DNA from: Candidatus Hodarchaeota archaeon
Lineage (GTDB): Archaea > Asgardarchaeota > Heimdallarchaeia > Hodarchaeales > Hodarchaeaceae
Assembly (NCBI GenBank): GCA_016840285.1
Contig: JAEOSR010000091.1
Location: 1-9,480, forward strand
Length of the DNA: 9,480 nucleotides
Direction of reading: 5' to 3'
Shown here: positions 2,902 through 9,480 of the stretch, in pieces
Layout of the letters: every line of letters starts with the position of its first letter
Position numbering within the stretch: position 1 is the first letter of the stretch
Translations under genes and position numbers: made by a program
The notes under the pieces: model-generated
What the model was told of the DNA's origin: nothing
Databases searched by the model: none
Seen by the model: the letters and a program-made list of their open reading frames with translations, nothing else

Positions 2902-5028
2902 ATGCCAGAAAAGCAGTATCAAGATAAGCTCCATCGGTTCCTGGGAATAAAATTGAACCAGCAGGAGCTGGAAAAACATCTTTGGGAAGCTGGAAATATT
3001 CTACGTGGGAGTGTGGATGCTTCCGAATATAAACATTTTATTTTTGGCTTGTTATTCTTGAAACGATTGAACGACATTTTTGAAGAAGAATTAGAAAAGC
3101 ATATTTCAACGGGTTATTCTGAAACTGAACTGAAGGATCCGAGTAAATATGATATTTATATACCTCCTAAAGCCCGATGGAGTTTGCTCAATTCAGCTTC
3201 AATCCAAGAAGCTTGCTTAATCATCGAAGAGAACAATCCATCTTTAAGAGGGATTTTAAGTGGAATTGGTTTTAATATTGGTGATCGTTTAGCTGATGAG
3301 ACATTAGATCAATTAATTCAGCATTTTAGCCTTTACAGACTTCGTAATAGTGATTTAGTTGATCCTGATATTTTAGGAAGAGCTTACGAATTCCTAGTAG
3401 CACATTTCGCTGAATCAGCTGGTAAAAAGGGAGGGGAATTTTACACTCCAGATATGGTCTCGAAGTTACTCGTTGAATTACTTCAACCTAGAGAAGGAAT
3501 GCGAATAGCAGACCCAACAATAGGATCTGGTGGTATGCTAATTCGATGTACAGAATATATTAAGGAGAATGGTGGGGACTGGAGAAGTTTGGCGTTATAT
3601 GGTCAAGAAAAAAACTTGTACACTTGGATTATCTGTAAAATGAATATGCTTCTTCATGGGATCTTAAATTCTCGGATTGAGAAAGGTGATACAATTCGAA
3701 ACCCCCGATTAGTCGAAGAAGATAAATTGTTGCTTTTTGATATTGTTATTGCAAATCCACCGTTTTCTTTGTCCAATTGGGGAATCGAAATAGCTCAAAA
3801 TGATTCTTATAATCGTTTTAGTCTCGGGATCCCATCAAAAAATTATGGAGATTTAGCTTTCTTACAGCATATGATAACTACACTTCGTAATGACGGTAGA
3901 ATGGGAGTAATATTACCACACGGGGTCTTATTTAGAGGGGGAGCTGAAAAAAAGATCAGAAAAGCATTAATTGAGAGAGATTTAATTGAAGCAGTTATCG
4001 GTTTACCCCCTAATCTCTTTTACAGCACCTCAATTCCAGCAGCTATTATCATAATTAATAAGAATAAGAGAGATGTCCAAAAAGGACAGATCCTGTTCAT
4101 TGATGCTTATAATTGTTATAAGGAGGTAAGATCTCAAAACGTCCTTAGACAAAAAGACATAGAAAAGACTGTATCAGCATTTAAAGAATTTAAATCAATC
4201 AAAAAATTCTCAAGGATTGTCTCCTCTGAAGAAATTCTTGGTTTTGATTTTAATCTAAACATTCCTTTATATGTCGAAAGCACAAAAGAGGAGGAATCAA
4301 TTAATCTAGGTCAAGTTCTTTTTGAAATTTCAAAGTTGAAAACATTAGAAAAGGAGTATCAGGATCTTAGTAAAAAGATTCTTGCAGAAATGAATGAAGA
4401 TGGCAATATTCAGTCAGACATATGGGAGGTTGCAGAACTAGGGGATTTGGTAGATTTGGAAACAGGGAAAAGAGCAAAAGGTGGAGCTCTGAAGGAGGGA
4501 ACTGTAGCTAGTATCGGAGGAGAGCATATCAATGAATCTGGATCCGTAGTCTGGGAGAATATCAAATTTATTCCAGAGGACTTGTATGACAAGCATTTAA
4601 CACAAGGAAAGGTTCAAATGAATGATATTCTGATGGTTAAAGATGGGGCAACAACAGGGAAAGTCGCTCAATTAAAAGAATTACCATTTGAGAAAATTGC
4701 TGTCAATGAGCATGTGTTTATAGTTAGAAGTAAAGATAGAGATATTTTGGATAATAATTTTCTATTCTATTTGTTATTCTCTTCACTCTGTCAGAATCAA
4801 ATAAAAAAACGATTTCATGGGGTTGTGGGAGGAATCAACAGGTCTGATTTTAAAACTATTCAAGTTCCTCTTCCCCCTATATCGGAGCAAAGAGATATTG
4901 TAGAAATTTTATCTTCAGTGGATGCTAGAATAACAACGACACAACAGATCCTTGATGAAACCACTCGATTAAAAAAGGGGCTCATGCAGCAGTTATTGTC
5001 TGGGAAACTTCGTAAGAGGAAGCAATAG
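2902..5028 (+). CDS. fused Type I DNA adenine methyltransferase and half specificity subunit (HsdM-HsdS')
   Basis: A 708-residue cytoplasmic fusion. Residues about 21-140 are the helical HsdM N-domain (LWEAGNILRGSVDASEYKHF, then FLKRLND). Residues 155-460 are the N6-adenine methyltransferase domain: GGEFYTP at 177-183, the SAM-binding motif I DPTIGSGGM at 204-212, and catalytic motif IV NPPF at 285-288. Motif I usually reads (T/A)CG(S/T)GG; here the Cys is Ile207. A charged helix (about 465-500) links to one target recognition domain (about 505-655) and one conserved helical repeat (660-702) with SEQRDIVEILSSVD and LKKGLMQQLLSGK. A normal HsdS has two target domains and two repeats, so this is half, and by analogy with engineered half-subunits two copies may pair to read a symmetric split site. 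It methylates adenine in its own DNA target. No HsdR is in the window. The glycosidase gene starts 3 bp after the stop. Confidence 0.9.
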   Translation: MPEKQYQDKLHRFLGIKLNQQELEKHLWEAGNILRGSVDASEYKHFIFGLLFLKRLNDIFEEELEKHISTGYSETELKDPSKYDIYIPPKARWSLLNSASIQEACLIIEENNPSLRGILSGIGFNIGDRLADETLDQLIQHFSLYRLRNSDLVDPDILGRAYEFLVAHFAESAGKKGGEFYTPDMVSKLLVELLQPREGMRIADPTIGSGGMLIRCTEYIKENGGDWRSLALYGQEKNLYTWIICKMNMLLHGILNSRIEKGDTIRNPRLVEEDKLLLFDIVIANPPFSLSNWGIEIAQNDSYNRFSLGIPSKNYGDLAFLQHMITTLRNDGRMGVILPHGVLFRGGAEKKIRKALIERDLIEAVIGLPPNLFYSTSIPAAIIIINKNKRDVQKGQILFIDAYNCYKEVRSQNVLRQKDIEKTVSAFKEFKSIKKFSRIVSSEEILGFDFNLNIPLYVESTKEEESINLGQVLFEISKLKTLEKEYQDLSKKILAEMNEDGNIQSDIWEVAELGDLVDLETGKRAKGGALKEGTVASIGGEHINESGSVVWENIKFIPEDLYDKHLTQGKVQMNDILMVKDGATTGKVAQLKELPFEKIAVNEHVFIVRSKDRDILDNNFLFYLLFSSLCQNQIKKRFHGVVGGINRSDFKTIQVPLPPISEQRDIVEILSSVDARITTTQQILDETTRLKKGLMQQLLSGKLRKRKQ

Positions 5029-7042: not shown

Positions 7043-7777
7043 TTGCTATTTTTTCAAATCCTCATCATCATTTCGTTAGTATTGGTGATTCTAGGTACAG
7101 TTCAGTTAAGTTCCTATTGGACTTACTCAAGTCAGTTAGGTATTTGTTGTATTTGTAGGAGAGGTGTATTGACTGAAGAGAGTTATTTTTTGTGCCCAGT
7201 TTGCAAATCAGTTTTCCACTATGAACATCTCAAATTCTGGTTAGAAATTAAAAATAAGTGTCCTATGTGTAACATTGGGCTCCCAAATATTCAACATTAT
7301 ATCATGAATCAGACACAAAATCCCCCATTCTTATCAGCAGGGACAAAACTCAATTCTAGGATTCAATCAGACCAAAAAAATCAAGAGAGAAGATCCAGAA
7401 TCAATCTAAAGAAAAGGAAGTCGTTTTTAATCAATTGTCCACGTTGTGCTACTGTACGTCTAATAAATATCGGAAAAAGTTCTACCATTTGCCCTGTTTG
7501 TGGAGTTCGAATTGTTTGGAGACGAAGGGATACCCACCAAAACAATATTGTTAAGGATTATAACAAGATTATCTCGTTATATCCAACAGAACAAAGAGGA
7601 AAAAAGAAGAAAAAAAAGAGAAAATATATCGAAGAAAGTCTGAAGTTAAGGAGGAAACCAAAGGTGAGGAAAAAGGTATGTAAAGAGAATCAAACAAGAG
7701 AAGAAAACCTCTTTGTTCTTAAGATATTGCTTTATTCAATTTTATTCTTATTATCAGTCCTCTTTGTTGTAAATTAA
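7043..7777 (+). CDS. membrane-anchored RING-like zinc finger protein with zinc ribbon
   Basis: A 244-residue protein. Residues 3-23 form an N-terminal membrane helix and 224-243 a C-terminal one, so the basic 200-residue middle should face the cytosol at both ends. Residues 35-76 are a RING-like finger with ligands Cys35, Cys38, Cys51, Cys54, His59, His62, Cys73 and Cys76; the FHYEHLKFWLEIKNKCPMC core closely follows the RING-H2 pattern FH-x2-C-x3-W...CPxC, with His62 in place of the usual Cys. A zinc ribbon follows at 132-153 (CPRC...CPVC), then a Lys-rich stretch (187-194). RING fingers recruit E2 enzymes for ubiquitin transfer in eukaryotes, and Asgard genomes encode related ubiquitin systems; an E3 role is inference, and no ubiquitin, E1 or E2 gene is nearby. 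The start must be TTG: an in-frame TAA lies at 7010-7012 and no ATG follows before the helix. Confidence 0.75.
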   Translation: MLFFQILIIISLVLVILGTVQLSSYWTYSSQLGICCICRRGVLTEESYFLCPVCKSVFHYEHLKFWLEIKNKCPMCNIGLPNIQHYIMNQTQNPPFLSAGTKLNSRIQSDQKNQERRSRINLKKRKSFLINCPRCATVRLINIGKSSTICPVCGVRIVWRRRDTHQNNIVKDYNKIISLYPTEQRGKKKKKKRKYIEESLKLRRKPKVRKKVCKENQTREENLFVLKILLYSILFLLSVLFVVN

Positions 7778-7983: not shown

Positions 7984-9321
7984 ATGGCAGCAACCGAGAA
8001 AACTAGTAAAGTTCCCGTTTTAATAGCAGGCATAATTGGTTGGGCCCATGATGGGTTCGCGTTGGTGCTAGTAAGTCTTCTTGCAACAACTATAAGTGCT
8101 GCATATGGTGTGGATAAAATAGCGATAGGATTCGTATTCTCTGCACAATATGTTATGACTGTACCAGGAGCAATTCTCTTTGGTGAACTTGCTGATCGTT
8201 TTGGAAGAAAAAATGTCCTTCTACTCTCTGTTCTCTGGGATTCTATTTTTACGTCGCTTTCCGCGATTGCGCCAACCTTTGAAATATTCGCCTTACTGCG
8301 GTTACTCTCTGGGCTTGGTGTTTCCTGGGGTATTTCATTCTCTTTACTATCAGAAACGTTTTCATCAGAGAAGCGAGGAGCTGCTGGTGGATTGGTTCAC
8401 GCAACATTTGTGGTTGGTTATATCGGAGCCGTACTAGTCACTCTGATCTTTGGAAACATTGAACCAATTACATTGGGGCCTTTAGTTCTCGACGGATGGC
8501 GAATCTGTTTCCTCTCGGCTCTTTTCCCTATCCCATTTTTGATATATTTGGAATTTACTTTAGATGAATCTCAAGTTTGGACTGATTATAAGAAATCAGT
8601 ACAACTCGAAGAAGAAGTAAAACGAGAAAAAGTTCGGATTTTTGACATTTTAAAGGGGAAATGGCTTAAATTAACTTTATTATTAACCTTATTATTCTGG
8701 CTTTCAGAATTTGCCTATCATACGCTCGCAGATTGGGCACCTACTTATTTTGAGTATCTGTTTACTTATGAGCTGCAAAAGGTTAATGGGAATGTTGACT
8801 CTGCTGGTACTCTTGCAATGGTAGTGATGTTAGGCGTGATGGTTATTGCTGCATTTGCATTATTCACTACTGGTTGGCTGAGTGATCGTATTGGGAGGAG
8901 AAATGCATTTTATGGATGTTCTATAATCGGTCTCATTGGGGCATCTATTTTCTTTGTTTCCAATTTTTTACTAGTCTTTACCCCTTTAATTGTAATAGGA
9001 TGTCTAGTATTAACAGTGTCATTTGGAATGCATGGAGTATTTGGAGTTTGGTCCAGTGAGGTCTTTCCCACAAGGATCCGTGCAACAGCTACTTCAGTTA
9101 TTTTTTCCGTAGCCCGTGGGTTAGCTTGGGGTGCTTTTTTCGTTGGCATAGTTGCAGAAACTCTCGAACCCACCGTATCGGTACTGGAAAACCCTTTAGG
9201 ACACGCCCAAGCGTTAGCTGTTGCAATGCTCGCCTGTACATTTGCCTATCTTGCTATGTTAGTCGTCCCACGACTAATCCCTGAAACGAAAGGGATCGAT
9301 ATCACAAAAATTCAGGAATAA
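7984..9321 (+). CDS. MFS transporter, metabolite:H+ symporter type
   Basis: A 445-residue integral membrane protein with 12 predicted helices (about 11-38, 47-69, 78-96, 100-122, 136-157, 172-190, 228-250, 277-298, 306-327, 331-355, 370-392, 406-428) and a charged cytoplasmic loop between helices 6 and 7. The MFS motif A is clear after helix 2 (GELADRFGRK, 67-76) and repeated after helix 8 (GWLSDRIGRR, 297-306). The RLLSGLGVSWG stretch in helix 4 and the PETKG near the C-terminus (433-437) are typical of the sugar and organic-acid symporter branches. The opening GWAHDGFALVLVS is like the GW-x-FDGFD start of carboxylate and aromatic-acid permeases. It would carry a small organic solute across the cytoplasmic membrane with protons; the solute cannot be told. 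The ATG start fits the first helix. Confidence 0.88.
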   Translation: MAATEKTSKVPVLIAGIIGWAHDGFALVLVSLLATTISAAYGVDKIAIGFVFSAQYVMTVPGAILFGELADRFGRKNVLLLSVLWDSIFTSLSAIAPTFEIFALLRLLSGLGVSWGISFSLLSETFSSEKRGAAGGLVHATFVVGYIGAVLVTLIFGNIEPITLGPLVLDGWRICFLSALFPIPFLIYLEFTLDESQVWTDYKKSVQLEEEVKREKVRIFDILKGKWLKLTLLLTLLFWLSEFAYHTLADWAPTYFEYLFTYELQKVNGNVDSAGTLAMVVMLGVMVIAAFALFTTGWLSDRIGRRNAFYGCSIIGLIGASIFFVSNFLLVFTPLIVIGCLVLTVSFGMHGVFGVWSSEVFPTRIRATATSVIFSVARGLAWGAFFVGIVAETLEPTVSVLENPLGHAQALAVAMLACTFAYLAMLVVPRLIPETKGIDITKIQE

Positions 9322-9365
9322 TCGAAATCCTCTAGAAAACGTTCTCAAGAGATCTACAATCCTCT

Positions 9366-9480
9366 TTATCCAAAAATAGATCGGAGTAATTGATTTAAAT
9401 GTTCTTGAATTTTCTCATCCGCGTCCCCCTTTGCTGCGATCTTTTGCCATGCTTCTTCTGTCAGTCCATATTCCTGTAAC
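9366..9480 (-). CDS. 3' end of an unidentified minus-strand gene
   Basis: On the minus strand one frame is open from the window end to a TAA at 9368-9366. The last 38 codons read as a soluble, charged, helical tail containing EYGLTEEAWQKIAAKG and ending QLLRSIFG. The composition looks coding, and the gene converges on the MFS gene with 44 bp between stops. The N-terminal part is outside the window. I do not recognise the family from the tail. Confidence 0.6.
   Translation of the reverse strand, partial: LQEYGLTEEAWQKIAAKGDADEKIQEHLNQLLRSIFG

Follow-up and report, generated by a model that had tools for sequence, protein, structure and literature searches.

Several eukaryotic RING-type ubiquitin ligases (E3s), including RNF24, Hrd1/synoviolin, gp78/AMFR, and Doa10, are anchored in membranes with the RING on the cytoplasmic side. 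The ubiquitin tagging of membrane proteins is the entry step of endoplasmic reticulum-associated degradation (ERAD) and of sorting by the endosomal sorting complex required for transport (ESCRT) in eukaryotes. As far as the available excerpts of the published work describe, the archaeal ubiquitylation reconstituted so far used soluble operon proteins. Here, we report on a gene at positions 7043 to 7777 (+) of a 9,480-nucleotide stretch of DNA (the window) from a Candidatus Hodarchaeota archaeon, a member of the Asgard archaea, which are among the microbes nearest to the ancestry of eukaryotic cells. Its product is probably (roughly 0.65) a ubiquitin E3 ligase of the RING type, with one helix at each terminus anchoring it in the plasma membrane of the archaeon. 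This assignment builds on computed features, i.e., the predicted fold, the conserved ligands, the family membership, the two-ended hydrophobic layout, and the ubiquitin system of a sister genome. On this basis, the protein is predicted to be a membrane-hairpin form of the archaeal C4H2C2 RING E3.

The zinc finger, its relatives, and the membrane layout

The protein consists, in order, of a helix (residues 2 to 28), the RING, a variable linker, a zinc ribbon, a basic tail that includes a Lys run, and, last, a hydrophobic C-terminal helix. Its orthologue lies on the chromosome of the nearest relative found (Heimdallarchaeota bin6; CP070695.1). The features are as follows:

7043..7777 (+): complete open reading frame (ORF) of the membrane-hairpin RING protein, TTG start, 244 aa; orthologue L001:10001-10717, 55% identity
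7046..7126 (+): N-terminal hydrophobic helix, residues 2-28 (one residue ahead); mean hydropathy 2.86 over 2-20; AlphaFold2 helix 2-28
7145..7270 (+): RING finger, residues 35-76; C-x2-C-x12-C-x2-C-x4-H-x2-H-x10-C-x2-C
7436..7501 (+): zinc ribbon CPRC...CPVC, residues 132-153; four invariant Cys; AlphaFold2 beta strands 127-131, 138-142, 147-149, and 156-158
7604..7627 (+): Lys-rich run, residues 188-195, within the basic loop (net charge, +30)
7715..7771 (+): C-terminal hydrophobic helix, residues 225-243 (one residue behind); mean hydropathy 2.69; AlphaFold2 helix 213-243

The bin6 orthologue also starts with TTG, and in-frame stops lie 11 (window) and 9 (bin6) codons upstream. In the database, the copy of the window protein (P0001) begins only at a downstream GTG (7085), a start that would shorten the first helix.

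The first-pass annotation of this DNA, which was made from the letters alone, had described a C-C-C-C-H-H-C-C finger, a separate CxxC...CxxC ribbon, a Lys-rich run, and a helix at each end, and all four are present. The eight finger ligands (C35, C38, C51, C54, H59, H62, C73, and C76) are invariant in 7 of 7 RING cores; in 14 aligned sequences (window included), C35, C38, C54, H59, C73, and C76 and the four ribbon Cys are invariant, and C51 and H62 are missing only in P0014. By the standard cross-brace order, zinc 1 would be held by C35, C38, H59, and H62 and zinc 2 by C51, C54, C73, and C76. The structure prediction that had been proposed as a check returned a RING-like fold with the two-zinc cross-brace of the RING superfamily, for which RING chains are the best matches. 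The single-sequence support from Pfam passes only narrowly (zf-RING_2, 27.6 bits against a cutoff of 27.3; E value, 3.6e-6), and a seven-sequence profile reaches PDB RING fingers with E values down to 1.7e-7. The best PDB matches of the single sequence are RNF24 (2.4e-5) and synoviolin (7.1e-3) and are limited to the RING, so the suggested likeness to eukaryotic membrane RINGs of the endoplasmic reticulum or endosomes is limited to the layout; no search was directed at full-length eukaryotic proteins.

The finger is not of the RING-H2 type (C3H2C3), in which ligands 4 and 5 are His, since His occupies both ligands 5 and 6 with C-x2-C-x4-H-x2-H spacing. A C-x2-C-x4-H-x2-[CH] spacing is typical of PHD and FYVE fingers and not of RINGs, and PHD chains rank lower among the matches (PHF8 and DPF3 in one search, Pygo and PPS in another); FYVE chains do not appear among the matches listed. 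It is nevertheless very unlikely that the finger is PHD- or FYVE-like and serves at the membrane as a reader of a protein tail or a lipid head group, given that RINGs are the top matches in both fold and sequence and that small RINGs with the same spacing lie near E2 (ubiquitin-conjugating enzyme) genes. The first-pass annotation was correct in noting that His at ligand 6 departs from the RING-H2 order; the feature is not an oddity of one gene but is standard in an Asgard family. The pattern of this family is C-x2-C, C-P-x-C-x4-H-x2-H, x10, C-P-x-C. Homologues keep the zinc ligands, as the RING assignment had presupposed: the eight-ligand pattern fits 48 distinct cores in the fetched loci (2 do not fit) and 66 of 71 database proteins (P0002 left out). 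Judged from these sequences, C-P-x-C-x4-H-x2-H, instead of the C-x-H-x2-H of RING-H2, is the standard spacing of this Asgard family. The window finger also carries the I/V at C1+2 and the Trp at H6+4 of the Asgard C4H2C2 family, which takes in small RING proteins beside E2 genes; some relatives are named "RING finger protein" at NCBI, and the small RING of bin6 is named "E3 ubiquitin protein ligase."

With the single full-length query, only the window's own copy was found in the database and only bin6 in the scan of genome contigs; a three-sequence profile was required to reach further homologues. The profile matches 14 database proteins besides the window's own copy, one of which (P0002) is a truncated model of a bin6 paralogue; the named sources are Hodarchaeota, Hermodarchaeota, Heimdallarchaeota, and an unclassified Promethearchaeota archaeon. 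This second full-length copy in bin6 (L003) is 28 to 29% identical, and a tblastn search of a phage collection gave no match.

Conservation between the window and bin6 differs by segment. The RING (71% identity; nonsynonymous rate [dN], 0.22; synonymous rate [dS], 1.8, near saturation; ratio, ~0.12) and the ribbon (81%; dN, 0.11; dS, 1.0; ratio, ~0.11) are kept, the linker is nearly unconstrained (31%; dN, 0.46; dS, 0.56; ratio, ~0.8), and the tail is intermediate (38%; dN, 0.43; dS, 0.82; ratio, ~0.5); the segments are short, and these rates are rough. By these rates, the RING and the ribbon are under purifying selection and are not chance, and the profile, fold, and selection results together reject an origin as chance Cys pairs.

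Among 16 sequences (window included), transmembrane (TM) segments are predicted at both ends in 9, at the C-terminal end only in 2, and nowhere in 5. The net charge of the ~200-residue loop is +30 in both orthologues and ranges from +21 to +30 in the remaining relatives with TM segments. There is no Lys or Arg before helix 1 in the window protein, the orthologue, or the paralogue; by the positive-inside rule, both protein ends would therefore lie outside, with the RING and the ribbon on the cytoplasmic face. A signal peptide in place of the first TM helix was also considered; in these three proteins, a hydrophobic start without Lys or Arg followed by a strongly basic loop favors an N-out anchor, and P0007, as annotated, has a charged start.

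RINGs of this family also occur in other genes. In bin6, the RING stands at the C terminus of repeat-rich, possibly alpha-solenoid proteins (L006/L086 and L007/L082; repeats judged by eye), an arrangement reminiscent of HOPS/GATOR2 subunits; one has a 1,050-aa open frame, and in one the repeats are preceded by a TM segment. In genome G070 (L036:981-3223, -), four tandem frames with this RING lie within 2.3 kb, one of them cut at the first Cys; they represent either an expansion at this locus or fragments of one larger gene.

E2-contact positions and association with ubiquitin genes

All 14 aligned sequences share I37, W66, L67, and P74, and the residue kinds at I37, W66, and P74, the presumed E2-contact positions, are kept through the Asgard RING family. 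In the available excerpt on the small RING finger protein (sRFP) of Caldiarchaeum, I30 and W58 were needed for full ubiquitylation (PMC5654768); going by that description, they appear to correspond to I37 and W66.

The RING family was detected in 167 of the 227 genomes of the phylum at an E value of 1e-5, and E2 was detected in 167 of the 227. The two agree in 219 genomes (both present in 163, neither in 56), a count that is uncorrected for kinship and drawn from genomes that may be incomplete; because 47 of the 56 genomes with neither stand next to one another in the numbering of the genome set, the independent events are far fewer. Four genomes have the RING without E2 (G094, G096, G117, and G141) and four have E2 without the RING (G085, G098, G153, and G165), of which G085 and G098 match the polytopic RING described below.

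A genome devoid of ubiquitin-like E1 (activating) and E2 proteins had been named as an objection to the ligase proposal. The nearest relative, in which this test was made, has E1, E2, and ubiquitin: bin6 yields four E2-family, five ThiF (E1-like), and four JAB matches, together with two ubiquitins over the cutoff and two weaker ones; in one ubiquitin, GG is followed by a three-residue tail. Four E2-like ORFs lie in its ubiquitin regions (two coincide with Pfam matches, and two were recognized by eye). Three of them carry a Cys after an HPN or HVN motif (L051:12057-12512, L052:6627-7154, and L053:9105-9656), and the fourth lacks the Cys. In bin6, L051:1205-1963 (-) is an E2-like gene without the active-site Cys, with a long tail, at ~4 to 5 kb from E1 and ubiquitin genes; by eye, its product is possibly an ESCRT-I Vps23-type ubiquitin E2 variant (UEV) protein.

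The distance from small RING to E2 genes is 0.3 to 0.8 kb in L054 to L061 and 2.7 to 2.9 kb in L051 (bin6; small RING at 9064-9393) and L062 to L064; no small RING lies near E2 in L065 to L070. Six of the E2 regions had been chosen for adjacency to a RING, and a RING lies within 3 kb of E2 in 5 of the 11 regions that had not. The four best E2 matches are each near a RING (L038 to L041), two of these being the same places as L056 and L061.

Larger membrane RINGs also occur among ubiquitin genes. A 19-row RING profile gave 10 bin6 matches at an E value of 0.01, 8 of which fit a RING pattern, 5 of these 8 with predicted TM segments. The bin6 gene L052:4511-5668 (-), which encodes five hydrophobic segments and a C-terminal RING-like finger, comes after ubiquitin, E1, E2, and JAB genes on the same strand and has relatives in L095 to L104. 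Ligand 6 of this finger is degenerate, and Pfam gives no match for it at an E value of 1e-3. The whole protein finds matches in 121 of the 227 genomes at an E value of 1e-6, many of the weaker ones to the RING only. At least 31 of 70 polytopic RING matches (picked by eye) lie 814 to 1,003 bases downstream of a same-strand E2 gene. This arrangement looks like a conserved Asgard ubiquitin-E1-E2-JAMM-membrane RING cluster and suggests that membrane RINGs belong to the Asgard ubiquitin gene set, which supports the E3 assignment of the window gene.

Two observations weigh against this assignment. The linchpin position, which directly follows the last Cys and is commonly Arg or Lys in E3 ligases, is N77 in the window protein; R or K is found there in 20 of 48 distinct cores and in 42 of 66 proteins, and N77 is the weak point of the case. 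Further, no E2 gene stands beside the window RING gene. The linchpin of the Caldiarchaeum E3 is Arg, and R69A impaired that enzyme according to the available excerpt (PMC5654768). Excerpts of another report describe the linchpin Asn of Rbx1 as stimulating Cdc34 and Ubc12 better than Arg and UbcH5 less, and the membrane E3 Doa10 as having a His linchpin, with priming left to one particular E2 (PMC7667886). Because Rbx1 has Asn and Doa10 has His, an Arg/Lys linchpin is not strictly defining, and by analogy the Asn may reflect selective E2 pairing rather than lost function.

The same Asn, and the lack of an adjoining E2 gene, would also fit a RING-like fold that serves in assembly only, the finger and the ribbon holding a membrane complex together without E2 contact, as the RING-like ends of GATOR2, IFT-A, and HOPS subunits do. 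The fold matches include chains of GATOR2, SEA, and IFT-A, and Pfam zf-RING_16, presumably a family that includes GATOR2 subunits, matches below its cutoff. We regard this explanation as unlikely, though worth serious attention: it does not account for the invariance of I37, W66, and P74 in 14 of 14 sequences and the conservation of their kind through the family, for the agreement of RING and E2 presence across the genomes, or for the same-family RINGs that adjoin E2 genes.

Neighboring genes

The RING gene of the window lies outside a ubiquitin operon and thus does not encode an archaeal sRFP proper. Its neighbors are HsdM-HsdS, a glycoside-hydrolase-like gene, and a major facilitator superfamily (MFS) transporter. 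The order methylase, RING, MFS is common to the window and bin6, with the glycoside-hydrolase-like gene as an extra between methylase and RING in the window; the methylases are 80% (570 codons compared) and the MFS transporters 92% identical. The +30 loop and the methylase neighbor kept in bin6 could point to a membrane-tethered nucleic-acid binder, in which the basic loop and two zinc modules would hold DNA or RNA at the membrane, possibly in connection with HsdM-HsdS. This is highly improbable, as the linker and tail are poorly conserved where the RING and ribbon are kept and the bin6 paralogue has no such neighbor (by eye). A methylase neighbor common to two close relatives is sufficiently explained by plain synteny, and a role tied to that gene was rejected because the paralogue's neighbors differ (by eye).

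The HsdM and HsdS domains are fused in one 708-aa gene (2902-5028, +); a similar fusion adjoins the RING gene in bin6, and no HsdR match was found among the six window ORFs scanned. A 400-aa protein (88-1290, -) has a marginal DUF5752 match (23.3 bits against a cutoff of 23).

Proposed role and comparison with known systems

The first-pass guess of an Asgard source is correct, and the proposal of a membrane-bound archaeal E3-type ligase agrees with the fold, the ligands, and the ubiquitin system of the relative; ligase activity, like the cytoplasmic side, E2 binding, substrates, and an outcome in turnover or ESCRT sorting, is what we infer for the protein. A charged E2 from the cytoplasm would dock on the RING by way of I37, W66, and the C-P-M-C loop, and the RING, held at the membrane, would promote the transfer of archaeal ubiquitin to proteins in or near the membrane. 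Substrate choice or partner binding would fall to the ribbon, the variable linker, and the basic tail, with the conserved ribbon probably contacting the client or partner. Tagged proteins could then undergo JAMM-edited turnover or be sorted by ESCRT, which has been linked to ubiquitin in Asgard archaea, according to the available excerpt (PMC10936438).

No title or abstract opening among the best-ranked papers of our literature search, which covered neither preprints nor most subscription papers, named a membrane-anchored archaeal RING. A broader and doubtful possibility, which we offer tentatively, is that Asgard archaea ran membrane-surface ubiquitylation before eukaryotes, with several C4H2C2 membrane layouts (i.e., the TM-RING-ribbon-TM hairpin, the polytopic RING in the ubiquitin-E1-E2-JAMM cluster, and TM-repeat-RING proteins) tagging proteins for JAMM-edited turnover or ESCRT sorting. 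If so, Asgard membrane RINGs would be a functional forerunner of ERAD and endosomal E3 ligases, and the ubiquitin tagging of membrane proteins could predate internal membranes. Such tagging would be testable in vitro, with E1s, E2s, ubiquitin, JAB, and at least two membrane RING kinds on one chromosome.

Among known systems, the sRFP of the Caldiarchaeum ubiquitin operon and the small Asgard RINGs near E2 genes offer the first comparison. The full ligand pattern recurs in the small Asgard RINGs, whose alignments with the window core show 25 to 37% identity (30 to 34% for six in another comparison). Those examined have ~70 to 130 aa and lie near E1, E2, and ubiquitin genes, and the one in bin6 has no TM segment, whereas the window protein has 244 aa, with a second zinc ribbon and a helix at both termini, and is encoded outside the ubiquitin cluster; its linchpin is Asn in place of Arg69 in Caldiarchaeum. 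In the excerpt describing the reconstituted Caldiarchaeum E3, C3 and H4 are out of line by two residues and there is an extra Cys (PMC5654768). From that description, we read the shift as the pattern of the Asgard RINGs. The RING-like ends of GATOR2 and IFT-A match the window finger in fold but sit at the end of large solenoid/WD40 subunits and have no membrane helices. Rbx1, of the cullin ligases, holds three zinc ions and likewise has no membrane helix. Its linchpin is Asn, as in the window protein (PMC7667886, excerpt). The eukaryotic membrane RING-H2 E3s (RNF24, Hrd1/synoviolin, and gp78/AMFR) and Doa10 have the RING fold in common with the window protein. Their ligand order is C3H2C3 or C4HC3, in contrast to C4H2C2 in the window finger, and to our knowledge none of them has the order TM-RING-ribbon-TM. 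With regard to ERAD-type membrane E3s, which combine membrane helices with a cytoplasmic RING, the window protein has a predicted layout of two terminal hydrophobic helices enclosing a +30 loop.
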